Below, in pieces: positions 6,987 to 24,777 of a DNA stretch of 64,000 nucleotides (the first letter of the stretch is position 1; every line of letters begins with the position of its first letter). A model generated the notes under the pieces. That model searched no databases. It saw only the letters and a list, made by a program, of their open reading frames with translations, and was not told the origin of the DNA. Origin of the DNA: Frankia sp. QA3 (GTDB taxonomy: Bacteria; Actinomycetota; Actinomycetes; Frankiales; Frankiaceae); assembly GCF_000262465.1 (NCBI RefSeq), contig NZ_CM001489.1, positions 5,370,741 to 5,434,740 on the forward strand, given 5' to 3'. The position numbers were made by a program, and so were the translations under genes.

Positions 6987-9128
6987 TCACACGGGGCGGA
7001 CCGCCGGGTCGAACTGGGCGAGGAACGGGCTCTGGGTGCCATGCCAGGAGACGTACAGCTCCTCCCGTGCCCGGGTGCACGCGACGAAGAGCAGGCAGCG
7101 CTCCCGCTGGACGTCCTGGGCGTGCGCGATTTCGTCCTCCCCGGCTGGCGTGACCGCGCTCGGGGCCGGAACCTGACCCTCGCCGACGCCAAGAACCGTC
7201 AGGCACCGGAACTCCAGCCCCTTCATCCGGTGCATGGTGCCGACCGCGACCGCCAGACCTCCAGCCTGTTCGGTCTGCGCAGGCTGCTGCTCGGGCAGCC
7301 GGGCCAGCAGCCGCGCGGGCACGCCAAGCCGATGCAGGGCGGGCAGAACGGACTCGGCGAGTTTGTTGGAGCGCACGGCGACGCCGATCTCGTCCGGCGC
7401 CACGCCGGCCCGCATCCAGGCCCGCACCTGTTCGGCGGCCTCCCGGATCTCATCGTTCCAGGTCGCGAAGCCCTGTAGCCGGGGCACGAGCCCATGGAGC
7501 TCCGACCGGTAGCCGGCCACCGAGTCCAAGCCGCCGTCCATGTCGTCGATCGGTTCGCCGCGCAGCATGCCCAGGCTCCAGGCGAGGATCTCCGCGGTCG
7601 TCCGATAGTTCACCGTCAGCCGCGCAGACCGGCCGACCACCTGGATGCCGAGCTCCCGCAGGCTCACGCGGTTGTGGTAAATGCGTTGGTGGGCATCGCC
7701 GGCGAGGAAGATGTCGTCCGCGCCTGGCTCGACCGCCGCTCGCAGGAAGCGCCACTGCACCGGGCTGAGGTCCTGCGCCTCGTCGATCACCGCATGCCGG
7801 TATGGCCGTTGCGGTGCCCGTTCCAGCAGACGCGCCGCCTCGACGCAGATCATCTCGTGAGTCCACCGACCGGAGGCGCGCAGTTCTCGATCGAACTGCT
7901 GCCAGGCGGCCCACACCTGAGCTCGCTGGCGCGGCCCGAGCGCGCGGCCCCGCCCGGCCCGGCGCGCCTTCTGATACCCCGCCTCGGTGATGATCTCCTG
8001 TGCGAGGATGACCTGCCGCCACTCCTCCGACAGAAAGCTCTCGGAGAAGGGGAGGCCGAGATCGTGAGCGATGGTGCGCCACACCGCCCGTTCCTCAGCG
8101 TCGGTCAGGATGGTCGGCTGAGGTTGCCAGGCCCGAAAGACATCGTAGGCAATCTTGTTCACCGTCGCGACGGTGATCCGTTCGCGTATCAGCGGATCGT
8201 GGACCAGCAGGTCGAGATCCGCGGTCAGCGAGTCGCTCATCGTCGAGGTGAAGGTGGTCAGGAGCACCCGACCGACCCCCCGCGCCGCGAGATCGCGCGC
8301 GCGGTGCAGGGCCACGACGGTCTTCCCGGTCCCCGGTCCGCCGGTCACCCGGGCCGGCCCCCGAAACCTAGCCTGAACGATACGACGCTGGGTCGGGTGC
8401 AGATAGACCCGCCACAGGGCAAACGGGTGCCGGAACACCTCCAGTAGTTCCTCCGGCCCGTCCACGAGGACCACCCGATCCGCGCTGCGCTCGACCGCGG
8501 CAACCACGTCATCGGCGTCGAAGGACGCCCGGTCAGCCTCGGACGCGGCCCCGATCTCGGCCCACACCTCCTCCAGAGTCATCCCCGCCGCCAGACCGAA
8601 CAGCGCGTCCCACTGATTCGGGGGAAGGAAGCCGCGCGCCATCTCGAGCTGCCGCACATCCGTCAGCACGCGGGCGAAGGCCAGCGTCTGCTCGTCGATG
8701 CCGAGCCGACGCAGATCCTTGTCCGCCACGTCGGCGAACAGCCTGCTGGGGACCTGCTCGGCCCGTCTGGTCAGCTCCGGGAGCGTCGCGTCGATCGCGA
8801 CCACATCACGAATCTCGATCCGTCCCGTCGCCACATTGATCGACACGCGACGCCGCTGGGCCCAGGCGTAGGCGTCGTCATGCGGCAACACCTTCAGCAG
8901 CGTGTAGGTGTCGCCGCTTTCCGGCTCGAGGACCACACCCCGCCAGAACTTGTCAATGCGGATCGACCGGAACCGGTTGTCACGTGCATTCCCAATCTTC
9001 TCCAGATGAAGACCGGCGTGGGTCGCCGCCTCGAACTTGGCGAACACCTCGAGCACCCGGTTCTGCACCTGTTTCTCCAGGGCCGCGAAGCCGAGCAGAA
9101 ACTCCTTGTCGATCCCCAGCCGCGCCAC
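6987..9128 (-). CDS. UvrD/Rep-like superfamily 1 helicase with RelE-like N-terminus
   Basis: A 713-residue cytoplasmic SF1 helicase. Visible motifs are Walker A GGPGTGKTVVALHRA (~265), Walker B AVIDEAQDLSPVQW (~448), VNYRTTAEILAW, VGTMHRMKGLEF and the motif VI region FVACTRAREELYV. The first ~110 residues (FAALEKQVQNRVLEVF ... FWRGVVLEPESGDTYTLLKV) resemble the RelE/ParE toxin fold found at the front of some actinobacterial helicases; this is inferred from pattern, not alignment. The GTG at 9128 follows GGGAGA. It is the last gene of the minus-strand defence run, 125 bp after the kinase, and probably unwinds nucleic acid in the defence response. Confidence 0.85.
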   Translation of the reverse strand: MARLGIDKEFLLGFAALEKQVQNRVLEVFAKFEAATHAGLHLEKIGNARDNRFRSIRIDKFWRGVVLEPESGDTYTLLKVLPHDDAYAWAQRRRVSINVATGRIEIRDVVAIDATLPELTRRAEQVPSRLFADVADKDLRRLGIDEQTLAFARVLTDVRQLEMARGFLPPNQWDALFGLAAGMTLEEVWAEIGAASEADRASFDADDVVAAVERSADRVVLVDGPEELLEVFRHPFALWRVYLHPTQRRIVQARFRGPARVTGGPGTGKTVVALHRARDLAARGVGRVLLTTFTSTMSDSLTADLDLLVHDPLIRERITVATVNKIAYDVFRAWQPQPTILTDAEERAVWRTIAHDLGLPFSESFLSEEWRQVILAQEIITEAGYQKARRAGRGRALGPRQRAQVWAAWQQFDRELRASGRWTHEMICVEAARLLERAPQRPYRHAVIDEAQDLSPVQWRFLRAAVEPGADDIFLAGDAHQRIYHNRVSLRELGIQVVGRSARLTVNYRTTAEILAWSLGMLRGEPIDDMDGGLDSVAGYRSELHGLVPRLQGFATWNDEIREAAEQVRAWMRAGVAPDEIGVAVRSNKLAESVLPALHRLGVPARLLARLPEQQPAQTEQAGGLAVAVGTMHRMKGLEFRCLTVLGVGEGQVPAPSAVTPAGEDEIAHAQDVQRERCLLFVACTRAREELYVSWHGTQSPFLAQFDPAVRPV

Positions 9129-9206
9129 GTCACCGTCTCCCGTCGATTCCTCGAAGTTCGCTGCCCCGCACTCCCCGCCTGCGAGCCGCCTGCTGCCCCG
9201 CCTACG

Positions 9207-9266
9207 CGGGCCACCGGGCTCAGCGGGCCACCGGGCTCAGCGGGCCACCGGGCTCAGCGGGCCACC
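9207..9266. repeat. 17-bp tandem repeat, 3.6 copies
   Basis: CGGGCCACCGGGCTCAG occurs three times without mismatch (9207-9223, 9224-9240, 9241-9257) plus a partial copy. The stop codon of the kinase lies inside the third unit. It fills part of the gap between the kinase and helicase genes and could vary in copy number. Confidence 0.85.
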
Positions 9267-10903
9267 GCAGTGCCATGCGCGCCGGCGAGCAGCTCCCGGA
9301 CCACGGGCACCATCGGGTGCTCCGGTCCCCAGACCCGCAGCAGGTCGGCGAGCAGCGCAGCGAGGCTCTCGGCTGCGGCGGCCCGATGGCCGGCCCCGAG
9401 CTGCAACAGCCCGATCTGGCGGCGCAGCTCGAGGACGCGGGGATCGTCCGCGCCGAACACCCGGGTCTCGTCGGGTAGCAGCGCGCCGAGCTGTTCCAGC
9501 GCCCGCGGCGTGTCACCGATCAGAGCCCGGCAGGTCGCCTCCCGCAGGCGGGCGAGCATCAGCCGTTCGCTGTTCCGACCGTCCCGGCGGGCGAGATCGG
9601 CGACCAGCCGTTCGTACTCGCCGACAGCCTGGCGGAAGTCACCCCCTTCGAACAACAGCTCGGCGAGCTCGAGACGAAGCGCGAGCGCGTCGGGGCTGTC
9701 GATGCCCAGCGCCCGGCCGGCCCGATCGACGGCCTCCGCCAGGATCGCGGTGGCCTGGCTGTATCGGGAGGAGCCGGCCAGCGAGCGGGCCTCATCCCGG
9801 GCTCGGCGAAGCTCGACCTGGTCGATCCCGCTGGAGGACGGCGACCGCAGCCCCGGCACGGTCATCGCGTCCGACCGTGCCGGTTCCCGGACGCCAGGAC
9901 CCGGCAGGTCAGGACCCGGCAGGTCAGGACCCGGCACAGGAGAGGTCGGCGCGGTGGTAGTCGGCCTGGACGGAGCCGGCGCGGAAGGATGCACGCGAGC
10001 GGTGATCCGGTTGTACATCCGGACCGTGTTGTCCGCCGCGGGATCGACGATTCCGGGAAGGGGAACCAGGTCCGTCATCCAGCCGATCAGCGCCTCGTAC
10101 ACCGCCTCCGCGCCGGACGGGCGTTCCTCCGGCGCCTTGCGCAGCAGGTCGGCGACCAGCCCGTCGAGGCCCGCGGGCACGTCGGCGCGCAGGGTTCGTA
10201 CCCGCGCCGGGACCTCCTCGACCTGCTGATGCATCACCGAATAGGACGACGACCCGGCGAAGAGCCGCCGGCCGGTCAGCATCTCGAACAGGGTCGCGCC
10301 CAGCGCGTACAGGTCGGTAGCCGGCGCGCTGAGCCCGGCGAGCACCTGCTCCGGGGCCATGTAGGCGGGACTGCCGAGATGCTGGCCGGTCAGGGTGATC
10401 TTCGACAGGTCGGTGCGGTCGAGTGCGACCGCGAGGCCGAAGTCGAGCACCTTCACCGTGCCGTCCGGCTCCAGCATCAGGTTCGCCGGCTTGAGATCGC
10501 GGTGGACAAGGGACGCCCGGTGCGCGACAGCCAGCACCGAGGCGGCCTGGGCCGCGATGGCCGCCGCCCACCCGATCGGCAACGCTCCCTGCTCGGCAAC
10601 GAGATCGGCGACGCTGATCCCATGTACCCGCTGCATGACCAGATAGGGGCGCCCCTCGTGGGTGCCCGCGTCGTATACGGCGGGAACCCCCGGATGCACC
10701 AGCCGAGCGGTTATTCGCGATTCACGGATGAAACGACGAACGAGCTCCTCGTCGGGCCGGCCATCGGGAAAACGGACGAACTTCACGGCGATCTCCCGGT
10801 CGAGTTTCACGTCCCGGCCGACCCAGACCTCGCCCATTCCGCCTTTGGCCAGCGGCAGAGCCTCCAGCTCGTACCGCCGGTCAATCATCCAACGTCCGGC
10901 CAT
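9254..10903 (-). CDS. Serine/threonine protein kinase with TPR-like tail
   Basis: A 549-residue soluble Hanks-type kinase. The kinase domain (about residues 8-265) has the Gly loop LAKGGMGEVW, Lys in IAVKFVRF, catalytic loop HRDLKPANLML, DFGLA and GSPAYMAPEQ, so it should be active. A Pro-rich linker with a 15-bp repeat (9896-9940) leads to an Ala/Leu-rich helical tail that looks like tetratricopeptide repeats (SRYSQATAILAEAVDRAGRA). There is no membrane segment, unlike PknB-type receptors. The ATG at 10903 follows GGGGGAGGG; a GTG at 10969 is an alternative. Its place between a methylase-like gene and a helicase gene inside a DISARM locus suggests it phosphorylates defence partners. Confidence 0.88.
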   Translation of the reverse strand: MAGRWMIDRRYELEALPLAKGGMGEVWVGRDVKLDREIAVKFVRFPDGRPDEELVRRFIRESRITARLVHPGVPAVYDAGTHEGRPYLVMQRVHGISVADLVAEQGALPIGWAAAIAAQAASVLAVAHRASLVHRDLKPANLMLEPDGTVKVLDFGLAVALDRTDLSKITLTGQHLGSPAYMAPEQVLAGLSAPATDLYALGATLFEMLTGRRLFAGSSSYSVMHQQVEEVPARVRTLRADVPAGLDGLVADLLRKAPEERPSGAEAVYEALIGWMTDLVPLPGIVDPAADNTVRMYNRITARVHPSAPAPSRPTTTAPTSPVPGPDLPGPDLPGPGVREPARSDAMTVPGLRSPSSSGIDQVELRRARDEARSLAGSSRYSQATAILAEAVDRAGRALGIDSPDALALRLELAELLFEGGDFRQAVGEYERLVADLARRDGRNSERLMLARLREATCRALIGDTPRALEQLGALLPDETRVFGADDPRVLELRRQIGLLQLGAGHRAAAAESLAALLADLLRVWGPEHPMVPVVRELLAGAHGTAVAR

Positions 10904-10985
10904 CGCACCCCCGACCAGCCCTCCCCCATCAGACGGCTTGGAATCATACTCCCACCAAGGAATATCCACCGAGTAGGAGCCGGCA

Positions 10986-13172
10986 TTATCGAGAATCGGG
11001 GTCGCCGCAGACCCGCAGCCGGCCGTCGGCTACGCCGAGGTAGCCGACCCGAATGATCTCCTCGCCCAGTTCGGCCGCCTCGCGCACCGATCTCGCCAGC
11101 CGCCCGAGTCGGCGGAAGTCCGCCCCCAGCTCCCGCTGGGCGGCCAGTGCCAGCGCGGGAATCCGGACCCGACGCAGGTCAGGCCGCGACAACGTCCCAC
11201 CCGACCGGCTGCTGGCCCCGTCCTCATCGCCGACGCCCGGCCCCCCGACCGCCCGATAACCCGCGGCCCGTAGGCTGCCCGCCAGAAAATGTGGATCGAG
11301 GCGGTCGGGATCGACACGCAGGAGCGCAACCTTCGGCCCGAGCACGGCGCCCACCTCATCGATCACCTCGGCCGCGATCCTCCCCACCGCGACCGCGCAG
11401 ACCACGTCTCCGGATCGGAGCAGCAGCATTCCGGGAAGTTCGCCGGTTCGACCGGAGGCTCCCCGGCCGCGCCGCACGTCGGCGGCGGTGAGCAACGGCA
11501 GGTCGCCACCGTCGGTTCTGGTCTGCAACGGGGCCGTCAGCACCGTCAGCGCCCCGCTCTTCGCCAACTCCCCCACCGTGACCCAGGCCGGTTGCGTCGC
11601 GACGGCCGTTTCGGACGCCGCCGCGGGCTCCGGGGTGGAGTCGGACGCTTCGGCCGGCGACGACGCGTCCGACGGCGTAATACTCGGCGTCAACGTACTC
11701 GGCGTCAACGTACTCGGCGTCAACGCGGACAGCGGCGTCAACGCGGACAGCGACGACAACGCGGCCAGGAACTCCTCGCGCACTGCCGGGAACTCGCGCT
11801 CGATGACGCTGGCCGGATACACCGGGACGTGGCGGCGCGGACTCAGGTCGACCTCGCCGTCGAGCAGGTCGGCGACCGGCATCCGCCGGAATCCGGGCGG
11901 CAGACCCGCTCCACCCGGTTCGACCACCCTGCCCGGCTCGCCCGCCGGGACCGAGCCGGTGAACGACGACCAGGCCCCCTCGACCGCGCTCGGATCGGCG
12001 CTCGCCAGGCCCATGAGCACCTGGGCGGGGGACGCACCGTCGCCTGGCACCCGCAGCACCCACAGATCCGGCGGCGAGCCGGCGCCGAACAGGTCCGGTG
12101 GCAGCCCCAGCACGGCCCGCAGCGCCCCGGCCCGCAGCAGATTCGCCCTGATCCGCCGCCCAGCCGGTCGGGACGCGGCGGCGGCCGGCATGATGACCAG
12201 CACCGGCGCGCCGCGCCGGCCATGGGCCAGGCAGTGCTGGACCCAGGCCAGCTCCGGTTCGCTCCGCGGCGGCACCCCGTAGCCCCACCAGGGCGAGTCG
12301 ACCAGCTCGTCGTGGGGCCAGGACCGCTGGCCGGACGGCGGCCCGCACAGCACGACGTCGACCCGCTCCCCGGCAAGGGCATCCGCCAGCAGGGAGTCGG
12401 CCGCGACGATCCGTGCGTCGGCGCCGTGTAGCAACAGCCCCGCGGCGGTGATCCGGGCCGCCGTCGGATCGATGTCCTGGCCGAGCAGCCGGCGGACGCC
12501 CGCGGCCCGCGCCGCCTCCAGCAGCCCACCGACCCCGCAGGCGGAGTCGAGGACGGTGAGTTTCCCGGGCCTTCCCCGCAGGCCGGCGAGTCCAACCATC
12601 AGTTCCGCGACCGCGGGCGGGGTCTCGGCCACCTGCCGGGAGTACACCTCGCGATAACGGACACGCAGAACCTCGAAGAGCGCGCCATGCCCGTCCCGGT
12701 CGGCGGCGGCGGCCGCGGACCGGGCGACCGGTACCCAGTCCGGCTCCCAGATCGGCGGAAAGCCGACGGGAAGGTCCGGCGCGGCTCGCTCGATCGCCGG
12801 CCCCACCAGGCGAGCGACCGCGGCATCGGCCTCCCCGAGCAGCCCGATCGCCGCGTCCCGGTCCCGCTGGTGGTACAGCAGGAAGCCGCCCAGGTGCCCG
12901 ACCAGCTCACCCAGCCGGGGATCGTCGACGGTCCCGCGGATCTGCTGCCAGACCCGGTCGCCGACCTCGACGCGAAACGGGCGGTCATGCCGGTCGAACC
13001 AGTCCTCCACCGCCGTCAGCGCGAACAGCGGACTGGTGGAGGCGCCGCCGACCGGCTGCGGGAAATCGACGAACCGGCGCCGCCAGTTACTGACGGCCGC
13101 GCGGCCCACCCCGGCGAGGCGGGCAATGTCGGACGCGGTGACCGTGGCCGAGACGTCTCCATCATTCGGCAT
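10986..13172 (-). CDS. N-6 DNA methylase-like protein with altered catalytic motif
   Basis: A 728-residue protein built like HsdM-type adenine methylases: an N-terminal HTH (ASDIARLAGVGRAAVSNWRRR), helical region, Rossmann-like domain, and a C-terminal target-recognition-like region (VRIPALALAAQRELG). Motif I reads VLDSACGVGG, near the family form. The catalytic (N/D)PP(Y/F) motif is replaced by CGPPSG in VDVVLCGPPSGQRSW, losing the catalytic Asn and the aromatic residue. It is therefore probably inactive as a methylase and may act as a DNA-binding sensor or specificity subunit. A linker of 15/18-bp repeats (11686-11751) joins the halves. The gene starts 3 bp after drmC, so it is part of the same operon. 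Confidence 0.8.
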   Translation of the reverse strand: MPNDGDVSATVTASDIARLAGVGRAAVSNWRRRFVDFPQPVGGASTSPLFALTAVEDWFDRHDRPFRVEVGDRVWQQIRGTVDDPRLGELVGHLGGFLLYHQRDRDAAIGLLGEADAAVARLVGPAIERAAPDLPVGFPPIWEPDWVPVARSAAAAADRDGHGALFEVLRVRYREVYSRQVAETPPAVAELMVGLAGLRGRPGKLTVLDSACGVGGLLEAARAAGVRRLLGQDIDPTAARITAAGLLLHGADARIVAADSLLADALAGERVDVVLCGPPSGQRSWPHDELVDSPWWGYGVPPRSEPELAWVQHCLAHGRRGAPVLVIMPAAAASRPAGRRIRANLLRAGALRAVLGLPPDLFGAGSPPDLWVLRVPGDGASPAQVLMGLASADPSAVEGAWSSFTGSVPAGEPGRVVEPGGAGLPPGFRRMPVADLLDGEVDLSPRRHVPVYPASVIEREFPAVREEFLAALSSLSALTPLSALTPSTLTPSTLTPSITPSDASSPAEASDSTPEPAAASETAVATQPAWVTVGELAKSGALTVLTAPLQTRTDGGDLPLLTAADVRRGRGASGRTGELPGMLLLRSGDVVCAVAVGRIAAEVIDEVGAVLGPKVALLRVDPDRLDPHFLAGSLRAAGYRAVGGPGVGDEDGASSRSGGTLSRPDLRRVRIPALALAAQRELGADFRRLGRLARSVREAAELGEEIIRVGYLGVADGRLRVCGDPDSR

Positions 13173-13175
13173 CGC

Positions 13176-14015
13176 TCAGCTTCCCGCCGCCGGCTCGGCG
13201 CCGGGAAAGAGGCGGGCCAACACGCCGCTCGTCTGCAACGCGGCGAGGTGCTCGGCAGCTCGGCGCGGGGGCGCCCCACCCCGGACGAGCAGACCGGCCT
13301 CGATGTTCTCCTCGACGCCCGAGGAGGTCAGGTTGGCGCTCGACACCAGCAGCGCCCGCCGGTCGGCGACAGCAATCTTGGCGTGCATCCGGGCGCCGGG
13401 GTGTCCGCGGCGGCCGGTCGGCCAGTGCCACAGCTGCACCCCACGGACGCTCGCGAACGCGGCCGCCGGCTCGCTGCCGGCCAGTCCGCCGCCGGCCCCC
13501 TGAAGTGTCTCGACGACGACGCTGACCGCCACCCCCCGCCCTGTCGCGGCACTGAGCGCGGTCAGCAGCGGCGGGTAGGGGCGCGCCGCATAGGTCATGA
13601 ACATCAGCTCCATGGTGGCCTCGGCGACCAGGTCCATCAGCACCCGGGCGGTCGCCCGGACGGGCACCTCATGGCTACCCGGACCGCTCCACACCGACTC
13701 CACCCGCGTCTCGGCGGCCCGCCCGGCATAACCGGCGCTGACCCCGTGCAGGTAGGCGGCCGCCTCGGCCGGGGCGATCTCCTCGGCTCGGCGGGCGCGC
13801 AGGACCGCCCGGACGGCGTCCCGGGCGGCCGGCCCGGCGACGGCGGCGATCACCGCCTCCTCCCACCCAGGCTCCCCCACGGCAGCCCCGGGCGGGGCCG
13901 ATCGCGGGCCGATCCGATCGGCGAGCTCGCCCAGCCGGGCCGGGCCCAGAGCGCTCACGGCGACGGCGACCGCCGCCGTGAAGGCGCCCGCCCGGCCCGG
14001 TTCAGACGGTGCCAT
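13176..14015 (-). CDS. drmC: DrmC, phospholipase D-like DISARM protein
   Basis: A 279-residue protein with a PLD-type nuclease/phosphodiesterase signature near the C-terminus: MHAKIAVADRRALLVSSAN followed by LTSSGVEENIEAG. This is one HKD motif, H-x-K-x4-D with the downstream Asn/Glu. The N-terminal third is Ala-rich and variable. In DISARM, DrmC is the PLD component and has been reported as dispensable in the Bacillus system. It lies 58 bp after drmB on the same strand, as in known DISARM operons. The ATG at 14015 is preferred to the in-frame TTG at 14018. Confidence 0.87.
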   Translation of the reverse strand: MAPSEPGRAGAFTAAVAVAVSALGPARLGELADRIGPRSAPPGAAVGEPGWEEAVIAAVAGPAARDAVRAVLRARRAEEIAPAEAAAYLHGVSAGYAGRAAETRVESVWSGPGSHEVPVRATARVLMDLVAEATMELMFMTYAARPYPPLLTALSAATGRGVAVSVVVETLQGAGGGLAGSEPAAAFASVRGVQLWHWPTGRRGHPGARMHAKIAVADRRALLVSSANLTSSGVEENIEAGLLVRGGAPPRRAAEHLAALQTSGVLARLFPGAEPAAGS

Positions 14016-14073
14016 CAACGCCGATCACCTGCACACACTCACCGGGATTTCCGATCATCATGGATCTCCGCCC

Positions 14074-15993
14074 TCAAGGCAGCTCATCGAACAGGGCGAG
14101 GTCTCGGTGCTGCGGGCCGTCGCCGAGGGGAACAACGAAGCGGCGGTCGAGGAACCGGTTGCCGCGCTCGCAGGTCGTCTCGGAGACGAACAGGCAGACG
14201 TGGCAGGCAGCGCCGTGCAGGAAGTCGGCGGGTGCATACGGCAGGCGTTCGGCGCACAGCGGGTCGGAGGAGCAGTGCCGGGCGTCGGCCAGGGCCCGGC
14301 GGGTGAGCCGAAGCAGCTGGTCGGGTTCGGCGAGGGACACCAGCCCGCCCAGGGTGCCCTCGGCGTCGGGGACGGCGGTGTAGATGAGGATGCCGCCGCG
14401 GGGATCGTCGTCGGTGCCGGCGTAGATCCGCTCGCTCAGGCTCGCCGAGCTGTACCCGCACTCCAGGGCGATGGTCCGGATCAACAGGTGGGACAGGGAG
14501 TGCAGGGCGATGAACCGCTCCCCGGGCCAGCCGTGCATCGGGTCGAAGTCGCCGGCGATCCGATCCGAGTAGCGGTTCACGCGGAAGCGGCTGTACGCGT
14601 CGCGGTGCTCGCGCATCTGCGTGCTGTCGGCGACCCGGGCCACCCACGAGCCGAGGATCTCCTCGGGCACCCGCAGGAAGATGCCCTCGCCGCGGACCTC
14701 GCTGGCCGGCACCCAGGTGGCCGGCCCACGGGTCAGCGGTGCCCGGATGACGAGGTCGGGATCGTCCGGGTCGGGGGCGTCGAGCCGGGTGAACCCGGTC
14801 AGCGCCCGCACCTCCCGCAGCCGTTCGGCCTGCACGACGTCGGTGTAGAAGCGGGCCAGCCGGGGCGGCACCCCGTCCGGATCCCGGCGCAGCGCGAAGT
14901 CGTCGCTGGCCTCGGGCAGCACCGGCGAGGAGAAGATCTCCCATTCGGGGGTGCGCAGATCCGGGTAGCCCCGTTCGTCGCCCTCCTCGGCACCCTCGCC
15001 GGGAGCCGCGTTCAGCGCCGCCCGATGCCGCTCGACCGCGGCCCAGACCTCGGCGTCGGTCCACCGCTCCAGCTGGCGGAACACCGGCATCACCGACCGG
15101 GAGAACCCCATCATCGCCTCGCCGGGGATCTGGCTCAGCTGCTCCCAGTTCTGCTCGACCTTGCCCGCCAGCTCGCTGGCGCCGGTGCGGGGGACGGAGA
15201 GCACCGACAGCGTCTGGGCGAACCACTGGTTGGAGGCGCCGACGACCAGCAGCCGGGGCTCGGCCTGGCAGCCACCGTCGGTGAAGGTACGCAGGTGCGG
15301 GTGGCGGCCCCGGCAGCGAGGCAGGTTCGCCGCGCCGCGGCGGCCCATCGCGTCCCGGATGTTGCGCCGCGCATCGCAGTTGACGCACCGGATCTCGACG
15401 TTGGCCCCGAGGTTGCCGCCCCGGTCCTCCATCCGCAGCCGCGGGTGGCTCGCCTTCGCGCACTCGCCGCCCCGGTGGACGAACATCACGTAGGGGAAGT
15501 CGTCGAGATGCCCGGCGGTGCAGGCGAGGACGAAGCGCGCGGCCACGGCGAGCGGCCGTCGGCCCGACCTCTTGCGGGGGCACACCTCGTGGAAGAACCG
15601 GGCGTCCTGCGGCCGGTGCGCGTTCTCGAACGGGAAGGTCCGCGAGGAGATCACGTCGAGTTCGTTGCAGGCGGTGCACCGAAGCCAGCTCGGAAACGGC
15701 AGGGTGGGCACGCCGATGCGATCCGCCTGACCGCTTCGGTCGCGGGGGTCGGTGTCCACCCACGGGGCCGGCCGCAGCTCGGTGACGCCGCGGTCGTATA
15801 CCCGGCGCACGGCGGCGAGCAGCCGGGGCTCGGCGATCGGCTCGTACTCGGGGACGTTGCGGTAGTCCCAGTCGTCGAGCCCGCGGACCAGGGTGGAGAA
15901 GCTTGGCAGGTCGACGAGGGCGCCGACCCCGCTGGTGAACATCAGATGGCTCGGCCGGACCGCGCCGACGCGCCGGTGGAACCTGGTGGCCAT
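14074..15993 (-). CDS. drmB: DrmB, DUF1998 zinc-binding DISARM protein
   Basis: A 639-residue protein of the DUF1998 family, partner of the DrmA helicase. Many paired cysteines are seen: CTACNE (~105), CTAGHLDDFPY, CVNCDARRN, CSSDPLCAERLPYAP, and the C-terminal cluster CHVCLFVSETTCERGNRFLD that defines DUF1998. The N-terminus MATRFHRRVGAVRPSHLMF is typical. The ATG overlaps the drmA stop by one base (TGATG), showing translational coupling. DrmAB forms the core DISARM complex that recognises and blocks incoming phage DNA. The gene appears intact. Confidence 0.93.
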   Translation of the reverse strand: MATRFHRRVGAVRPSHLMFTSGVGALVDLPSFSTLVRGLDDWDYRNVPEYEPIAEPRLLAAVRRVYDRGVTELRPAPWVDTDPRDRSGQADRIGVPTLPFPSWLRCTACNELDVISSRTFPFENAHRPQDARFFHEVCPRKRSGRRPLAVAARFVLACTAGHLDDFPYVMFVHRGGECAKASHPRLRMEDRGGNLGANVEIRCVNCDARRNIRDAMGRRGAANLPRCRGRHPHLRTFTDGGCQAEPRLLVVGASNQWFAQTLSVLSVPRTGASELAGKVEQNWEQLSQIPGEAMMGFSRSVMPVFRQLERWTDAEVWAAVERHRAALNAAPGEGAEEGDERGYPDLRTPEWEIFSSPVLPEASDDFALRRDPDGVPPRLARFYTDVVQAERLREVRALTGFTRLDAPDPDDPDLVIRAPLTRGPATWVPASEVRGEGIFLRVPEEILGSWVARVADSTQMREHRDAYSRFRVNRYSDRIAGDFDPMHGWPGERFIALHSLSHLLIRTIALECGYSSASLSERIYAGTDDDPRGGILIYTAVPDAEGTLGGLVSLAEPDQLLRLTRRALADARHCSSDPLCAERLPYAPADFLHGAACHVCLFVSETTCERGNRFLDRRFVVPLGDGPQHRDLALFDELP

Positions 15994-18900
15994 CAGACGC
16001 CCCTCCCCTGCCGGGTCCGCGCCGGGGCCAGCCGGGTCTCCCCGAGTTCGTCGCCGGCCGGGGCGTCGTCGGGGTCCCGGGCGTCGGAGTCCCGGTCGTC
16101 CTCGCCGATGTCGGCGTCCGCGTCCGGCGGAGCCCCGAAGCTCCATCCCGGTTCCCCGTAGGCGGGGCTGTAGATCTCGTCCGCGCCGGGGACGAGAAGG
16201 TTGATCTCGTGTTCGGTCTCCCGCATCGACTGGGCGACGGTGAGGACCTCCCAGCGGCCGTGGCCGGCCGGCTCCAGCAGGCCGGTGACCTTCTGCGGCC
16301 CACCGCTCTTGCGGTAGCCGAGTCGGATCGGCCCCGTCGTCATCAGCTGCCAGCGGTCGACGAGTTCCCGTAGCCGCTCGCCGAGGTACTCCTGGCCGCG
16401 CGGGCCGGCGACGGCCTCCGCCCGGGCCAACAGCCGGTTGATCAGACCGGTGGCGACCGGGCCGGCGAGGTCCACGGCGTGGGCGTCGGTGTTGCGGGTG
16501 TTCGCGTCGTCGAGGTGCCGCAACGCGGCGACGAACGTGCCGGTGGCGGTGCGGTCGAGCGAGCGCCGGGTGAACGGGGTGACCGACAGGGCCTCGACCT
16601 GCCGGTAGAAGCTGGCGTGGTAGGGCTCGAAGTCCTCGTAGTGGGCGAGGTCGCGGGGCCGCGCCCAGTTGTAGAGGGTGACGACGAGCCCGGGTCGCGC
16701 CGCGTCGCGCCCGACCCGCGACGACGCCTGGATGTACTCCGCGGTGTTCTTCGGCTGCCCGATGACGGCCATCAGCCCGAACCGGGAGACGTCGACGCCG
16801 ACCTGCAACATCGAGGTCGCGAGGACCACGTCGACGGGGATCCGGTCCTGGCGGGCCCGGGACCGCTCGGCCACCGGGTGGGCGGGCGGCCGTTCGCGGA
16901 CCCGGCTGTCCCGGGCTCGGTACACGTCCCGCCAGTTGTCGGCGATCGCCTGGCGCCGGGTGGAGGTGTCGAGGTCGGGATCGAAGGCGATCTCCAGCCG
17001 CTTCAGCACGTCGCTGATGTCCGCCGACGACACCCGGGAGGTGAGCTCGGAGATGGTGAGCATGCCGGCGGCCGGGACGATGCGGTTGGACAGCCCCTTG
17101 CGCGTGCCGTGGGTGCGCACCCGGGTGGTGACGTCGTCGTCGAGGTAGCGGCGCATGCCGGCGAGTTCCCGGGTGGCGTTGAAGTAGCCGACGAGGGTCT
17201 GGTACGCCTCCGCGGCCTCCCCGTGCCGGTCGAAGAGGGTCTGCCCGGCGAGGAGCAGGATCTCGGCGAGCCGGATCTCCGCCGACTTCATCCGGGCGCC
17301 GTGGGCGCACACCCCGAGGTAGCGCCGGCCCGGCTCAGCAGGGGTGACGGGGACCTGGCGGGAGAAGAAGGTGTCGGCGACGTCGATCACCTGCGGCGGG
17401 AAGACGGCGAGCCGGCGGCCGAACACGCCGAGAACCTGGTCGCGGGCCCGCTTGGTGGTGGCGGTGGAGGCGACGATCTTCGGCCCGGTGAGCGTCGTGC
17501 CGCCGGCGGCACCCGCCGCGTCGGCCGGGACGGGCCAGGAGCACAGCTCGTCGACGGCGCTCTCGAACAGGCCGACGGTGGTGCCGAGCGCGCCGGAGAT
17601 GAGGTGCAGCTCGTCCTGGATGATCAGATCGGGCGGGCGCAGCCGGCGCACCGGCTCGCTGGCCACGGCCGGCAGGTTGCCGCGGCGGTGATGCCGGGAC
17701 CCGCAGCCGGTGCGGTCGTCGAGGTCGTCGTGGCGGTAGCCGTGCCGGGGGCAGCGCTCGCGCACCCGGCCGAACAGGATGCCGGCCTCACCGCGCCAGG
17801 GCAGCTGGGCGAGCTTGTCGACGGTGGCGATGACGAGGCTGGGGGCGTAGCGGTAGATCTCCTCGTCGACGGTGAGGACCGGCAGGCCCTCCCCGGGGGA
17901 AAGCCGCCGGGAGAACGGGCAGGCGTCGGCGCCCTCGCCGTTGGAACAGTAGAGCAGGACCCGGCGGGTGTCCTCGTCGATGTGGGCGTCGGTGTGGGCG
18001 GCCAGCGCCGTGCCGCACCACGGGCAGCTCAGTGTCTGCAGGACGTTGGCCCGCTTGCCGTTGCCCACCTCGCGGGCCTCGCTGATCTGGTCGCGGGCGT
18101 CCTCGAACCGGTTCGGGGAGACGCCGCCGCCGACCCACAGCCCGATCCGGAACGGCACCGCGCCCCAGGTGGCCTCGTCGGCGCGGCGCAGCACCTCGGC
18201 CGCGCAGACCAGGGCCGCCGCCCGCTGGAACTGCTGGGCAGTGAGCAGCCGCAGGGTGTAGCGCATGAGGACGGCGACGCCGGCCTCGCCGGAGCGGGCG
18301 TCCAGCCCGGTGCCGATCGTGCCCTGCAACCGGCGGATCGCGAAGGTGTAGGCGGTCAGCCCCAGGTAGGCCTCCGTCTTGCCGCCGCCGGTCGGGAAGA
18401 ACAGCAGATCGACGACGGCGCTGGCGTCGGCGGCCCGTTCCGGATGGGTCGGCTCGGTCAACGCGGGCAGGTTGAGCAGGACGAACCCGAGCTGGAACGG
18501 CCGCCAGGACGCCGCCCTGGCCCCCTCGGCCTCGACCTTGGCGGTCGCCTCGGGGTAGCTCAGGCCGTGCTCGTCGCGCAGCCGGGCGATGGCGGTGTGC
18601 CGGCGCTGGGCCGCCATCGCCCGGTTGGCGAACCGGAACGCGGCCAGCGCCTCGCCCTGGCGGGGCTGGGCCGGGTCGGTGAGCAGGGCGATCCCGGCGC
18701 GGATGCGACCCGCCGCCACCCGGGCCTCGCCGATGGCCGTCCGGGCGGCCGGCCGCAGCCGCTCGGGCAGGCTCGGCACCTGCACCTCACGCTCGTCGAG
18801 CCAGGCCTCGTAACCGTCGGCGAGCGGCATCAGCCCGCGGCGCAGGGCCGCGGCGTCGGCGACGACCAGGGCATCCATGGACAGTTCGACGTGTTCCAGC

Positions 18901-19991
18901 GGGGTATTTGGGCCGGCGGGCGCGATGGTCGACGGGACGTCATAGGTGGGCAGCCAGGTGGTCTCCAGCCGGTGGGCGCAGCGCTCACCGTCACGGACGG
19001 CGGGATGCACCGCGACGTTGCGACCGTTCGCGTACCGCCGCTGCGCCCGGTAGAGCAGCCGCAGGTGCAGCTCCTCGTGATCCTCGTGGTCGTGGCCGTC
19101 GTGGTCTGCCCCGACGCCGTCCTCGGGATCGTCGACGGGCAGGAAGACGGCGCGCTCGCCGTCGAGCGCGGTCACGGTGAGCCGCGGCTGGAACAGCCAG
19201 GCCGTGTCGGCATGCGACGGCGGCTCCGGCTGACCGTTGACGAGGGTCAGCTCGACGATCCGCCGGCCCGACCGCTCGCGCGGGCCGGCCCACTCGCGCA
19301 GCACAACAGCGAGGAAGACCCCCGTCTCGTCGTCGCCGACCAGCGGCACGCGGTATGCGTCGGAGCCGAGCGAGCCGTCCAGCCGGATCTCCCGGTTCGC
19401 ATGGACGACCGGCTCCCGGGCCCAGGTGGTGCGCTTGCGCCCCTCGTCGTCCTCGGTCTCCTGCCGGACGTACTGGCCCCAGGCGGCGGTGACGGCGACG
19501 ACGTCGACCGCCGCGCCGCCCGGACCGGCCGGGACGGCGAACGACAGCCCCATCGACGAGGCCCAGATTCGGCCCCGGTTCTGCGGGGTGAGGATCTCGG
19601 GGAGGTCGGTGTCGGCGTCGCCCTGCACCGCCGTCTCGGTGTCGGCCACCGTGTCGGCGGCCGCCGCCTCCCGGGCTCCACGCGGGGCGGGCTTCGGACC
19701 GAGCATGCCCACGAGGTACCGCTCCCGGGGTCCCATCGCCCGGTGGTGGAACACCTCGTGCTCCCCGTCCCAGGGGCCGAGCAGGTCACGGCGGACGAGA
19801 TCTTCGAAGGCGTCCCGGACCTCGTACGAAGTCGCCGGGATAAATTCCACCGGCTTGTCCAGGATCTCCGTCGGCGAAAGGCCGTCCGAGGTACCGGCGC
19901 CGCCCCCGCTCACACCCCCCGATCCGGCGAGCGAGGGCGAGGCGCCCTTCTCCGGGGGAAACAGCGCGCCCTGACCTTCCTGCGCCACCAC
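15993..19991 (-). CDS. drmA: DrmA, DISARM superfamily 2 helicase
   Basis: A 1332-residue helicase. Walker A is FFPTGGGKTEAYLGL (~533), the DEXH box is IIQDELHLISGALGTTVG (~793), and the C-terminal helicase domain has ATSMLQVGVDVSRFGLM and YIQASSRVGRD (~1090). Four cysteines (CPWCG ... CSNGEGADAC) lie between the helicase motifs. The size and motif order fit DrmA of the DISARM anti-phage system, which binds DNA with DrmB. The GTG at 19991 follows GGGGGAGATGAG. It heads the drmABC block and is separated from drmD-drmMI by an 8.3-kb toxin-rich block, which is unusual because these genes normally adjoin. Confidence 0.93.
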   Translation of the reverse strand: MVAQEGQGALFPPEKGASPSLAGSGGVSGGGAGTSDGLSPTEILDKPVEFIPATSYEVRDAFEDLVRRDLLGPWDGEHEVFHHRAMGPRERYLVGMLGPKPAPRGAREAAAADTVADTETAVQGDADTDLPEILTPQNRGRIWASSMGLSFAVPAGPGGAAVDVVAVTAAWGQYVRQETEDDEGRKRTTWAREPVVHANREIRLDGSLGSDAYRVPLVGDDETGVFLAVVLREWAGPRERSGRRIVELTLVNGQPEPPSHADTAWLFQPRLTVTALDGERAVFLPVDDPEDGVGADHDGHDHEDHEELHLRLLYRAQRRYANGRNVAVHPAVRDGERCAHRLETTWLPTYDVPSTIAPAGPNTPLEHVELSMDALVVADAAALRRGLMPLADGYEAWLDEREVQVPSLPERLRPAARTAIGEARVAAGRIRAGIALLTDPAQPRQGEALAAFRFANRAMAAQRRHTAIARLRDEHGLSYPEATAKVEAEGARAASWRPFQLGFVLLNLPALTEPTHPERAADASAVVDLLFFPTGGGKTEAYLGLTAYTFAIRRLQGTIGTGLDARSGEAGVAVLMRYTLRLLTAQQFQRAAALVCAAEVLRRADEATWGAVPFRIGLWVGGGVSPNRFEDARDQISEAREVGNGKRANVLQTLSCPWCGTALAAHTDAHIDEDTRRVLLYCSNGEGADACPFSRRLSPGEGLPVLTVDEEIYRYAPSLVIATVDKLAQLPWRGEAGILFGRVRERCPRHGYRHDDLDDRTGCGSRHHRRGNLPAVASEPVRRLRPPDLIIQDELHLISGALGTTVGLFESAVDELCSWPVPADAAGAAGGTTLTGPKIVASTATTKRARDQVLGVFGRRLAVFPPQVIDVADTFFSRQVPVTPAEPGRRYLGVCAHGARMKSAEIRLAEILLLAGQTLFDRHGEAAEAYQTLVGYFNATRELAGMRRYLDDDVTTRVRTHGTRKGLSNRIVPAAGMLTISELTSRVSSADISDVLKRLEIAFDPDLDTSTRRQAIADNWRDVYRARDSRVRERPPAHPVAERSRARQDRIPVDVVLATSMLQVGVDVSRFGLMAVIGQPKNTAEYIQASSRVGRDAARPGLVVTLYNWARPRDLAHYEDFEPYHASFYRQVEALSVTPFTRRSLDRTATGTFVAALRHLDDANTRNTDAHAVDLAGPVATGLINRLLARAEAVAGPRGQEYLGERLRELVDRWQLMTTGPIRLGYRKSGGPQKVTGLLEPAGHGRWEVLTVAQSMRETEHEINLLVPGADEIYSPAYGEPGWSFGAPPDADADIGEDDRDSDARDPDDAPAGDELGETRLAPARTRQGRGV

Positions 19992-20250
19992 GGCTCATCT
20001 CCCCCTCGAAGCGGTCGGGTCCGGCGCACCCCTCGCGCCATCCCTGTGTACCGAGTTCACAGACTACACCGCAACCCCGGCTCGCGTAAGGGCACCATCC
20101 CACGCAGGTCCGACAGATCCCCGGGCTCCGGCGGCACGCCCGCCCGCTACGATCGACTCAACTACCCACAGTAAGATCACCGCCACGCATTAGCTCCGCG
20201 CGACGGCGGGCATCAGATAGAGCGGTTGGCGTCAGGACGGAGATGAGCCG

Positions 20251-20511
20251 ATGACCTCTCCCCAGCGCACGCTCGACGAACTGGCCGCACAGCAGAGGGT
20301 GCGACCGGTGCGGAGCCTGGCCGAGTTGACTCTGTCGGAGCCGCTGACCGACGAGGAGTACGCCGACTTTCTCGCCGCGGCGATGTCCGCGCGCGGAACA
20401 CCAGACGGTGGATCCGCGGTCAGTCCTCGTCGAGCGCACGGGACGCGGCCGCGACCCGCTCCTCGGACTGCTCGACATAGCGGAAGTCGCGGGACCGCAC
20501 GTAATCGATGA
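20251..20511 (+). CDS. Antitoxin-like small protein, probably 3'-truncated
   Basis: The first 49 residues (TLDELAAQQRVRPVRSLAEL ... LTDEEYADFLAAAMSARG) resemble the short acidic antitoxins that precede PIN toxins in actinobacteria. After SARG the frame runs for 37 more codons of low-complexity Arg/Pro sequence antisense to the neighbouring gene, so the true C-terminus has been replaced. A near-copy of the EYADFLAAAMSARG segment occurs at 22373-22415, where it leads into the start of a PIN domain. The antitoxin/toxin pair therefore seems to have been split. The ribosome site is GGAGATGAGCCG before ATG. Confidence 0.5.
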   Translation: MTSPQRTLDELAAQQRVRPVRSLAELTLSEPLTDEEYADFLAAAMSARGTPDGGSAVSPRRAHGTRPRPAPRTARHSGSRGTARNR

Positions 20512-21843
20512 ACTCGGGCTCGGGCGGCAGGTCGTGCTCCTGGAGATAGTAAACGATCTCCAGGCTCCACACCCAGTCACCATCAGTCACGTAGACGAGC
20601 GGCACCTTCCTTCCACGCGACGGATCGAGCAGATCCTCCACCAGACCCGCGACCCGCAGGATGGTGACCCCCCGCTGGAGGTACTCGACAAAACGCGACC
20701 TTTCCTCGCCGGCCGGAAGCGGCGCGCGGTCCCGCGCCCAGGGAACCTCGCCGTCCATTCCATCAAAAAGCTTCGCAATCTTCACATCGCCAACGATCTC
20801 CGGCATTAGCCCTCGCTCTCTACCGCGGAAGAAATCTGATCCATCGACCGTCCTGCGCAATCGACTGTCTGATTCGCCCGAAGCATTCCTTCTCTCCTTG
20901 ATGAGAACAAGGGAGCCATCTCCTCTGTTGGCCACGAGCTCGGTCGGCGCGACCACAGGGACACCGAGATGATCTGCAAGATCCTGGGCAACAGGCGCCT
21001 CGCCTCGCCCGGTCTCGCAGGACACCAACCTGATCGGGCGGCCCATCCATTCACCGTCCGCCCGGATAGCCTGCTCAGATCCCGACCGTCCAACGGAGTT
21101 CCGTCAACAACAAAGGAATCAGGGTTTCCATGCAGATCGGCAGTATACACGTCAGCCAGAGGGCGTACGGAGGAGGCGGCGTCCCGCATCCTGTGGTCCT
21201 GCTCCGCGTAGAACGCTCGGCCGCCGTCCGTCCGCATGCTCTCCAGGTAGACCGCGGCAAGTCTCGGCTCCAGCCGCTCCAACGGACGAAACGCGTCTGG
21301 TGGTGTCCATCCGTCGCCCGCCTCCGGCGGCGGATACCGCACTCCACCTATTGAGTCGCGTTGTGCCACCACAGCTTCTGGATCACGGTCTCCATCATCA
21401 GGGATCGCAGGATCTCCAGATGGGGCTGGCTTGGCCGTGACCGTCTCCGGAACTCCTTCATCCGGCTCGTCAGCGCCCAGCCTCTCCGACTTGACCGCAG
21501 ACGCTTCAGTGGATGTGCCGGCCATGTCCTCCGAAGGATCTTGCGACCGATCGTTCGACTGCTCCGGAGGCTTCCCAGCGGTCGTCGCCGATCCGCTCTC
21601 GGCTTCCTTCTCCGCCGGTTCGCCATACCATTGTCGACCGGGCCGCTCCGCCTCTGCGTGATCCGATTCCTCAACCCGCGGTGTCGAGGCCGGCGCATCG
21701 GACGGTTCCCGGCCCGATGCGGAGGGCCGACTTTCAGAACCGGCGGGATAAGTCTCCTCCAGAGAGAGGAGATCCTGGTCGGACGCGTGCCGCCGTCCCG
21801 AGACGTCACCAGTTCCCACAGCATCAGTCGGGTGCTCCGACAT
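20420..21843 (-). pseudogene. Frameshifted toxin-like protein with His/Cys (caspase-like) signature
   Basis: Two overlapping frames make one gene. The upstream frame (21843 to ~21070) has a Glu/Ser/Pro-rich linker, then AVYLESMRTDGGRAFYAEQD and ADLHGNPDSFVVDGTPLDG. The downstream frame (~21060 to 20420) continues as GRPIRLVSCETGRGEAPVA and QDLADHLGVPVVAPTELVA. The pattern ...HG...(30-40 residues)...SC-E-T-G...LADxLGVPVxAPT recurs in actinobacterial polymorphic toxins and resembles a caspase-like His/Cys dyad. The join needs a one-base shift near 21060-21085. A C-terminal module (LVYVTDGDWVWSLEIVYYL) of unknown function ends the protein. It follows the 163-aa frame at 21844 with TGA-ATG adjacency. 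Confidence 0.55.
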
Positions 21844-22335
21844 TCACCGTTCAAGTCGGGCCAGCTTCTTGTCGAGGGGTGTATTCCCCGCACCCCCGGC
21901 AGAGGGCGAGGCAGATTGGCCGGGCGGTACCGGCTTCTCGTCAACGTCCAACGTCCGCCGCCCCGCCGTCTGATCCCCACCCGGGCTGAGGGCCCTCCGT
22001 TCCGCCGGCCGGTCGAGAAGCGCGAGTGTGCGGCCCATGGGTGTCGGCGCCACGGCGGAGACATCGGCTGCGCTCCGTTCGGGGATCGTCGTGGTGTGGT
22101 CACGCCCGAGTGCCCGCCGTTCGAGCGCATCCAGCTTCGTTTCCATCGGCGTTCGTTCTCGAGTGTCGGTGCGCAGCTCACGATCCGCGCCAAAATCGTC
22201 CCCGGCGGCCCGGCCGTCCCGCTCTGCGTCGCCGTTCCCAGTGGGATGGGCGTTATGCGCGTCATGCCGGTCCAGCAGCCGGAGCTTCGCCTCGACCGCG
22301 GACGCGGGGCACGTTATTTTTGCCTGGGCCTGCAC
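21844..22335 (-). CDS. Helical-repeat linker protein, N-terminal part of toxin-like unit
   Basis: A 163-residue protein with no known enzymatic domain. It contains four copies of a short helix (EAKLRLLDRHDA, METKLDALERRAL, MGRTLALLDRP, LDKKLARLER) separated by polar linkers. The EndoU-type toxin at 25631 carries the same element (EAKARLLDLATRRA, AERKAALLDWAHERA), so these two proteins share an N-terminal repeat, probably for delivery or partner binding. It ends directly before the ATG of the His/Cys protein and may be its separated N-terminal half. No signal peptide is visible. Confidence 0.5.
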   Translation of the reverse strand: MQAQAKITCPASAVEAKLRLLDRHDAHNAHPTGNGDAERDGRAAGDDFGADRELRTDTRERTPMETKLDALERRALGRDHTTTIPERSAADVSAVAPTPMGRTLALLDRPAERRALSPGGDQTAGRRTLDVDEKPVPPGQSASPSAGGAGNTPLDKKLARLER

Positions 22336-22372
22336 GACAGGCGTCGACGGAAGACTCAGACCTAGATCCGGA

Positions 22373-22474
22373 CGAGGACTACGCCGACTTTCTCACCGCG
22401 GCGATGTCTGCACGTGGACGCCAGCTGCCGCAGTAAGCGACTACGTCATCATCGATACCGACGTCTTCTCCTGA
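22373..22474 (+). pseudogene. Antitoxin tail plus first residues of a PIN-domain toxin
   Basis: The frame ending at 22436 reads EDYADFLTAAMSARGRQLPQ then stop. Immediately after, in another frame, comes VSDYVIIDTDVFS then TGA (22436-22474). VIIDTDVFS is the N-terminal strand of a PIN ribonuclease with its first catalytic Asp. This is a decayed VapBC-like pair whose toxin has been cut to about 13 codons. The antitoxin segment duplicates one at 20349-20396. Confidence 0.6.
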
Positions 22475-22505
22475 TCCGCCGTATCCTCCATGGACCCGCC
22501 GGGTC

Positions 22506-23708
22506 TCACGGAGAGGGGCGGCGAGGGAGTGATCGAGCCAGGTCTCGGCGCAGGTTCTTGAGACTGACGAGCTGCCCACTCGTCGGGTCGGGGGCCTTCC
22601 AGAAATCCCAGCCGTCCGTCTGACGCGCGGTCTCCGGCAGACCGGGGCCGGCGATGTCAACCTTTGCCGCCGCCCCCGCCGCGCTCAACGACAACTCGTC
22701 GCCGCCGAAATTGACCTTCCCGTCCGGTAGTACCTCCGCCGTGCGCCGCCCGCCGCGGTAGTCGCCGGTCAGCGTGCTTCCGGGCCGCACGATGCCGGCC
22801 TTGACCAGATCGGTCAACTTCAGGCTCCGCTCCTCGGGGGTGACCCGAGCGGGGCTGGTCGCCGAGGCCGAGGCCGAGGCGACAGCGGTCGGCGCGGGCG
22901 GGCCGGTGGTCACGCTCACCGTCGAGCTTGGTCGTGGGGAGGGACCGGTCCCGGCTCCGCTCGAGGCGGGTGGCGGTGATACGGCCGGCGGCAGGGAGGA
23001 AGTTCGGGGAGCGGAGCCGGCCGCCGGGAAGCCAGCCGGGAAGTCAAAGGTCGCGCGGGTCCGGATCAGCCCGGCCCGAACATCGGCCTCGCTCAGGTCC
23101 CGCGTGCGCCGGTGGACCAGCGAGACGAGTTCGGCTGCCGGGTCACCGCCGTCGAAGAGCTCCGCGAGGGCGGACCGGAGCTGGCCGTCGACGAACTCGG
23201 CGCGCCACAGGTCATCGATCCGGTCGCCGTTCATCGCGTCCTTGCCGAGCAGGGCAAGGACTTCCGCCGCGCCGCCCGGATCCGCGGATATGCTGACCGA
23301 CCGATAGAGTTTCTGGTCGACCGGGACCGGCGCGTGCGCGTTGTAGATGCGCCATTCATCGCCGTTCGTGAGCGCCACCCATCTCACCCCCGCCGACGTG
23401 GCGTAGCTGAGCACCTGGGTCGCCCACCTGAGCTGGGAGAGGTCCTCTCCGAGCCCCTTCGCCTCGATGAAGAGGCGGGGTCTGCGCAGCAGGAGCAACG
23501 CGTAGTCCACCGGGTTCGCGGACGGGCCGAACCGGTACTCCCGGTTGACCTCGTCGAGGTCATGGATGTCCCAGCCCAGTGCCTCGATGACCGGTTCGAT
23601 CAGGCTGGCCTTGGTGTTCTGCTCACCGATACGCCGCCCGTGCCGGTACCGCCCGAGCCGATCGGCGCACTCCTTGAGCGTCTCCTGCAGCGTTCGCGCC
23701 ACTCTCAC
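22506..23708 (-). CDS. PD-(D/E)XK nuclease-like protein with C-terminal RAMA domain
   Basis: About 400 residues. The N-terminal part matches the type I restriction HsdR_N fold: an IEPVIEALGWD lead, then NPVDYALLLLRRPRLFIEAK with the D...E-x-K catalytic signature, then WATQVLSYATSAGVRWVALT and NGDEWRIYN. A Pro/Ser/Thr linker leads to a C-terminal RAMA (restriction enzyme adenine methylase-associated) domain: VKAGIVRPGSTLTGDYRGG ... GWDFWKA ... LVSLKNLRRDLA. RAMA domains are thought to read modified DNA. The combination could cut or sense DNA by methylation state and lies between the two halves of DISARM. Starts at 23708 or 23702 (both GTG) are possible; the frame is open to 23777. Confidence 0.8.
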   Translation of the reverse strand: MRVARTLQETLKECADRLGRYRHGRRIGEQNTKASLIEPVIEALGWDIHDLDEVNREYRFGPSANPVDYALLLLRRPRLFIEAKGLGEDLSQLRWATQVLSYATSAGVRWVALTNGDEWRIYNAHAPVPVDQKLYRSVSISADPGGAAEVLALLGKDAMNGDRIDDLWRAEFVDGQLRSALAELFDGGDPAAELVSLVHRRTRDLSEADVRAGLIRTRATFDFPAGFPAAGSAPRTSSLPPAVSPPPASSGAGTGPSPRPSSTVSVTTGPPAPTAVASASASATSPARVTPEERSLKLTDLVKAGIVRPGSTLTGDYRGGRRTAEVLPDGKVNFGGDELSLSAAGAAAKVDIAGPGLPETARQTDGWDFWKAPDPTSGQLVSLKNLRRDLARSLPRRPSP

Positions 23709-23866
23709 CCCAGCCACCGATCGCCTGCTGTCCTGGGGCTGTGGGCGGCACCCCTCCCCAACAACAATCAGTATCATCCGATTACTGAGCGGTGCACGGG
23801 GGGCCGTCAGCCCGACCTCGTCGTCCAGCAGTCCGTGACCGGCGTTCCACCACCCACGACTTGCAG

Positions 23867-23944
23867 TTGATCTACAACTTGATCGGCAACTTAGCTTGCA
23901 AGTTGTAGATCAAATTGTCACTCACCCCAACCAAGTTGTAGATC
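23867..23944. repeat. 15-bp inverted repeat with a third direct copy
   Basis: TTGATCTACAACTTG (23867-23881) and its exact reverse complement CAAGTTGTAGATCAA (23899-23913) surround a 17-base loop. A further direct copy, CAAGTTGTAGATC, lies at 23932-23944 at the very start of the truncated NYN frame. The arrangement could be an operator array, a hairpin, or a recombination scar that replaced the 5' end of the gene. Confidence 0.8.
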
Positions 23945-23949
23945 GTTTG

Positions 23950-24627: not shown

Positions 24628-24676
24628 CCACGCTTTGACAGGCAGGCAAGCGCGTGCCTAGCTCGACATCTAGACC

Positions 24677-24704: not shown

Positions 24705-24777
24705 CTATGGGCCTCTCCCTGCGGTTGTGCCGCCGACTGGGCACCGCAACGGAAGCTGCCCCGGGGATGACTTCAGA

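Follow-up and report, generated by a model that had tools for sequence, protein, structure and literature searches.

The window, a 64,000-nucleotide stretch of the Frankia sp. QA3 genome (a single contig of 7.59 Mb), includes a complete class 1 DISARM system that is interrupted between drmMI and drmA. All five genes of the class are located on one strand and the DrmA is of the class 1 type; the system has drmD and the adenine methylase gene drmMI rather than drmE and drmMII, and 8.7 kb split drmMI from drmA. The genes drmA, drmB and drmC were called using the curated NCBIfam cut-offs, all three of which were exceeded. The window differs from class 1 DISARM in that three genes are appended 3' of drmC, coding for a methylase-like protein (MTL), a kinase (KIN) and a UvrD helicase, and the order on the strand is drmD-drmMI-[8.7 kb other genes]-drmA-drmB-drmC-MTL-KIN-UvrD. 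The features are listed below.

36500-32991, minus strand: drmD, SNF2-like helicase (PADLOC DrmD, 1389 bits), with a 4 bp overlap with drmMI
32994-28660, minus strand: drmMI, Eco57I/MmeI-like adenine methyltransferase (PADLOC DrmMI, 1662.6 bits)
15993-19991, minus strand: drmA, YprA-family helicase (class 1, DrmAS; NF038325, 1383.7 bits, cut-off 950)
14074-15993, minus strand: drmB, DUF1998/MZB protein, start at 15993 (NF038324, 709 bits, cut-off 240)
13176-14018, minus strand: drmC, PLD-family protein (NF038319, 240.3 bits, cut-off 133)
13172-10986, minus strand: MTL, 728 amino acids, helix-turn-helix (HTH), HsdM-like helical and methylase domains and half-HsdS (PF02384); 3-bp gap to drmC
13074-13148, minus strand: N-terminal helix-turn-helix of MTL, amino acids 9-33 (IAR...VGRAAVSNWRRR, near-invariant in 43 homologs; weak match to the MADS mad1 profile, E 3e-4)
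12333-12344, minus strand: motif IV of MTL, amino acids 277-280, GPPS replacing N/DPPF (alignment columns across MTL homologs)
10969-9254, minus strand: KIN, Hanks-type Ser/Thr kinase with a TPR-like C-terminus, 571 amino acids from the GTG at 10969 (Pkinase, TPR_12)
9128-6987, minus strand: UvrD, UvrD/GajB-like superfamily 1 helicase, ArmD-like, 713 amino acids (Pfam UvrD-helicase)
8784-9128, minus strand: extra N-terminal domain of UvrD, amino acids 1-115 (strand/helix order in the AF2 model; weak ParE_like matches in homologs)

The last gene of the canonical class 1 DISARM loci compared (Nocardia, Microvirga and Planktothrix plasmids) is drmC. The sequence-only reading had placed the trio directly after drmC on the same strand and outside described DISARM; the ORFs lie as it said, and its second statement holds in the open literature searched. 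A promoter and terminator scan of the locus was uninformative, with 0 promoter-like sites and one terminator-like site (10985-10967) compared to 2.6 expected in shuffles. The segment between drmMI and drmA (20000-28650) includes a gene for a RAMA plus HSDR_N-like protein (22506-23702, minus strand), which near relatives conserve at 85-91%, and a 505-amino acids ORF (25857-27374) that has the opposite relative orientation in the relative G005. On the other side of the system, 2.2 kb upstream of drmD and on its strand, there is a second Hanks kinase gene (38656-40758), whose product groups in the tree with a control kinase and not with the MTL-linked family. A further SNF2 helicase (52132-54900) scores 801 bits with DpdE vs 426 bits with DrmD, and no further Dpd gene was found among the neighbors tested.

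The MTL protein combines the parts of a type I modification enzyme with a DNA-binding segment. Its N6_Mtase domain (PF02384, 80.8 bits) spans amino acids 184-373, and a profile search matched type I M subunits (7vru_A, 8.9e-48) over profile positions 148-458 and, as a separate match, the C-terminal half of HsdS subunits (5ybb_D, 1.6e-8) over positions 510-635. The AF2 model has a mean pLDDT of 85.5 and its top Foldseek match is the PacII M subunit. Motif IV of active N6-adenine methyltransferases reads N/D/S-PP-F/Y/W; that of the window MTL reads GPPS, and the protein is probably catalytically inactive. Having lost the catalytic Asn/Asp, it most likely still binds DNA without methylating it, and it perhaps still binds SAM.

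The KIN gene codes for a kinase domain (Pkinase, 136.6 bits, amino acids 42-290) followed by a TPR-like tail (TPR_12, 33 bits, amino acids 395-456); an alternative start, the ATG at 10888, would give a 544-amino acids protein. The AVK, HRDL and DFG motifs of an active Hanks kinase are intact, and the catalytic Lys, HRD and DFG are present in all 20 DISARM-linked kinases tested. A crude hydropathy scan of KIN revealed no obvious membrane segment. In a quick tree with some long branches, the MTL-linked kinases form one family separate from that of the control kinases; its clades are context-specific and include DISARM-linked ones.

The third protein matches UvrD-helicase at amino acids 244-487 (73 bits) and UvrD_C at amino acids 625-696. 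The Walker A motif GGPGTGKT and the DEAQD motif are intact in an alignment of 15 sequences, and a structure comparison (VIA-align) covering amino acids 216-709, with the N-terminus outside it, gave the UvrD fold for amino acids ~241-709. Thus the altered methylase motif, the kinase with a TPR-like tail and the UvrD helicase had all been recognized correctly from the sequence. The N-terminal domain of UvrD may be RelE/ParE-like, as suggested by weak ParE_like matches in two homologs (E 0.003 in L084 and 0.11 in L114); the same segment of the window protein had no match in Pfam. A tblastn search against plasmids revealed full-length homologs on E. coli plasmids, with 34.5% identity over amino acids 3-703. 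One of these plasmids has an operon consisting of genes for a DEAD helicase, a methyltransferase, a 2113-amino acids DEAD helicase and, last, UvrD, which corresponds to the published ARMADA type II layout, and on this basis the UvrD of the window can be considered ArmD-like. ArmD of ARMADA type II is a GajB-like helicase with an N-terminal RelE-like domain and is essential (Bell et al. 2025, PMC12458937). Members of the UvrD family also follow the drmA/drmB-like genes in a DISARM-like group that is more distant (L147 and L151, 984 and 957 bits), without MTL or a codirectional KIN. A gene of cluster c65 adjoins UvrD in L046, L059, L060 (on the opposite strand) and L114; its product has a GmrSD_N domain in L114, and it is perhaps a fourth DISARM add-on.

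The sequence-only reading had named co-occurrence beyond chance in other genomes as its test, and such co-occurrence was found in a drmB-anchored survey of 394 Actinomycetes genomes, in which 16 loci with a DrmB scoring above 780 bits were taken as the close clade and 49 other loci had a weaker DrmB. In 14 of the 16 close-clade loci the drm genes were followed by KIN, either immediately or with MTL in between, vs none of the 49 distant loci with a codirectional KIN at this position (Fisher p 2e-8, computed on loci outside the window's family and ignoring relatedness); the co-occurrence spans several families. The genome of the window itself carries about 60 matches to protein kinases in 7.6 Mb, and despite this number the 14/16 vs 0/49 distribution rules out that KIN is a random neighbor. 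In the close clade MTL is found in 11/16 loci and a same-strand UvrD of the window's family in 10/16, UvrD being missing or displaced in the other six. Of 12 non-identical loci in which it was measured, 11 have a drmC-MTL gap between -7 and +34 bp, and in several the two genes overlap. Pairwise distances of the three proteins are correlated with those of DrmB (r 0.61 for KIN, 0.82 for MTL and 0.84 for UvrD; Mantel p ~0.0005 each). The gene order is conserved in actinobacteria of several families, and near relatives (the closest named one at the locus is Frankia tisae, with ~90% identity) retain the complete drmA-B-C-MTL-KIN-UvrD order with local differences: in G010 MTL is located straight 3' of drmB and no UvrD was found, and in G002 UvrD aligns in fragments only. 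Because of this gene order, the overlapping genes and the co-divergence, the data support that MTL, KIN and UvrD are a conserved DISARM extension in one actinobacterial DISARM clade. The proposal of a phospho-regulated extension of DISARM is therefore borne out in its second half; phospho-regulation is what we infer from the sequences. KIN is absent from L127 and L130. In L124, L126 and L128 it is found directly 3' of drmC with MTL missing, which indicates that the kinase is the steadier part and that in these loci it cannot act only through MTL.

The loss of the catalytic motif is recurrent. Alignment columns show that motif IV departs from N/D-PP-F/Y/W in 14 of 22 DISARM-linked MTLs (GPPS, APPF/S, VPPF/Y, IPPF and DPVV), a count that does not represent 14 independent events since the five rows with GPPS come from the window and near-identical relatives, L041 duplicating L021; the tree requires a minimum of four changes inside the DISARM set. 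On the other hand, an initial N or D and a final F are found in motif IV of 5/5 MTLs of the type I restriction group (RM1), 2/2 of the Hma group (HMA) and 10/11 of those with UvrD only. A group of other MTLs has a motif IV starting with H, and thus motif loss is not confined to DISARM. A reading in which MTL serves DISARM as an additional, active modification subunit with a second methylation specificity, and the kinase regulates methylation, would agree with the M-subunit fold and with the NPPF kept by homologs beside type I restriction and Hma. This is very improbable for two reasons: 14 DISARM-linked MTLs, that of the window among them, have Gly, Ala, Val or Ile in place of the Asn/Asp of motif IV or carry a motif disrupted in another way, and the equivalent N-to-A change in ArmB of ARMADA abolished protection (PMC12458937). 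Some DISARM-linked MTLs retain N/DPPF and may still methylate. The simplest reading of the motif is that methylation by MTL would be dispensable where DrmMI is present and that in most loci the gene is maintained for another function.

The MTL-KIN pair is not restricted to DISARM. With MTL as anchor, 79 loci from named genomes had a called MTL gene; KIN followed it immediately and codirectionally in 57 of these and was at most two genes away in 64; the 80 loci sampled are the best-scoring ones for the window protein, which biases these proportions, and genes in the fetched loci were called with a simple coding-potential caller. Further samples consisted of a 40-genome search of relatives, a 61-genome search of one order and 40 fetched loci. 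In this last sample of 40 MTL loci, all from one order, KIN was directly adjoining in 18, about 12 were in or beside a recognized restriction or defense gene set (for two of them just UvrD), and in 15 the tested partners were all lacking. With type I restriction genes there are two layouts: MTL-KIN behind hsdM-hsdS-hsdR-YgjP (L061, L086, L089, L098, L226, L233 and L234, with hsdS read in three), and MTL-hsdM-hsdS-hsdR-KIN, with MTL first and a KIN-family kinase last (L186-L189 and L221); the MTL-hsdM start is also present in L211, L215, L217 and L222. The idea that MTL is a stand-in for a missing HsdS was rejected for the three loci read, which have an hsdS-like ORF between hsdM and hsdR. The pair is also located in front of HmaA (L042, 1419 bits; L045; L202), and in Actinomadura it is found with a convergent UvrD. 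In G045 (L038:1-8272) MTL is followed by a gene for a 2097-amino acids protein in which a kinase domain is fused to a DruE-like helicase, and which may represent a relative of Druantia that bears a kinase. A divergent PP2C phosphatase gene is present beside MTL-KIN in ~35 loci, mostly in conserved chromosomal neighborhoods that include, for example, methylmalonyl-CoA mutase, and this fits a phospho-switch; the DISARM locus of the window has no phosphatase. A gene for a 1650-1750-amino acids DUF3686 ATPase adjoins MTL-KIN, mostly with PP2C, in L043, L050, L053, L204, L205 and L208, in several Streptosporangiaceae-type genomes.

These distributions bear on the other half of the earlier proposal, an independent system. 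As one indivisible new system the trio was rejected, since MTL-KIN, KIN alone and UvrD are each found apart; what stands of that proposal is that the pair occurs with other defense systems and alone, UvrD being of the ArmD family. Tentatively, and with slightly less than even confidence, we consider MTL-KIN a portable phospho-regulatory module, undescribed in the open literature searched and sometimes accompanied by PP2C, that would have been repeatedly taken up by DISARM, two type I layouts, Hma and a DruE-like helicase, and whose methylase in DISARM would now be a catalytically dead sensor. The pair could instead be an independent defense or housekeeping module that merely shares defense islands with DISARM: most MTL-KIN pairs are located away from DISARM, many of them beside PP2C in conserved, otherwise non-defense neighborhoods, and some Ser/Thr kinases, such as Stk2, act alone in phage defense. 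The fixed order and orientation behind drmC, the start/stop overlaps and the co-divergence with DrmB argue against this explanation, as do the retention of KIN behind drmC where MTL is gone and the DISARM-linked clades of the kinase tree, and we regard it as unlikely.

For the window we propose, with about even confidence, that a portable phospho-regulatory DNA-reading module and an ArmD-type effector have been appended to DISARM, MTL being the sensor or scaffold and KIN the switch. From the domains and motifs we infer that MTL would bind chosen DNA sites through its HTH and half-HsdS portions without methylating them, DrmMI supplying the protective methylation; that upon an infection cue the targets of KIN would be MTL and/or DrmA-C or UvrD, whose phosphorylation would gate DISARM from an idle to an active state; and that the ArmD-like helicase would be an added effector that processes the DNA engaged by DrmAB, any anti-phage effect being likewise predicted. 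In the DISARM class with DrmMII, DrmAB is autoinhibited and opens on 5'-overhang single-stranded DNA, and methylated DNA lowers its ATPase rate (PMC9142583).

The main rival explanation is transcriptional control of the kind exerted by CapK+CapS, a kinase and a DNA-binding repressor that control several adjacent immune operons and of which 88 of 443 pairs are located just downstream of a restriction-modification system (Chambers et al. 2026, PMC13373217). MTL would then be an HTH repressor that KIN frees by phosphorylation after infection or DNA damage, setting the expression of the adjacent defense operon. Both are two-gene modules of a kinase and a DNA-binding protein that adjoin several different systems, restriction-modification included, and the near-invariant N-terminal HTH of MTL is in agreement with such a role. 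However, CapK+CapS pairs a GHKL kinase with a STAS-wHTH protein and is located upstream of the operon it regulates, whereas KIN is a Hanks kinase matching PF00069, MTL is an HTH-methylase-like protein, and Pfam detected no GHKL or STAS family in either. Moreover, the pair is mostly downstream in DISARM, where, as in one of the type I layouts, it closes the gene run on the 3' side, and a full HsdM-like domain plus a half-HsdS would be superfluous in an autoregulator. We therefore find this explanation rather unlikely.

The wider question is how methylation-based defenses such as DISARM avoid self-damage and time their firing; a conserved kinase and a putative pseudo-methylase encoded in the operon allow phospho-control of DISARM to be tested directly. 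That MTL-KIN is also located beside type I restriction and Hma suggests a control layer shared by several systems, and searching for the pair is a route to further defense systems. Among the known systems, the PADLOC profiles mad1, mad2 and mad6 of MADS match MTL and KIN. Membership in MADS (mad1, mad2, mad6 and mad8 matches) was rejected, the MAD6 score being 123.8 bits vs a cut-off of 460 and below that of generic PknB; mad2 reached 61 bits vs 227 for a type I methyltransferase model. Pgl/BREX type 2 also includes a kinase (PglW) and a methylase (PglX) in one phage-resistance system; KIN scores 56.1 bits vs a PglW cut-off of 990, and this assignment was discarded. As for ARMADA type II, the UvrD of the window is, like ArmD, a GajB-like UvrD helicase with an N-terminal extension, but it follows drmA-drmB-drmC and the kinase instead of the large ARMADA YprA protein. 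The locus as a whole was rejected as ARMADA type II: the BrxHII-like helicase, the PglX-like methylase and the large YprA helicase do not precede UvrD, the kinase does, and the helicase present is the DISARM DrmA. Kinases are not mentioned in the ARMADA paper (PMC12458937). An ArmD-type helicase located behind a kinase would link DISARM and ARMADA through a shared effector.
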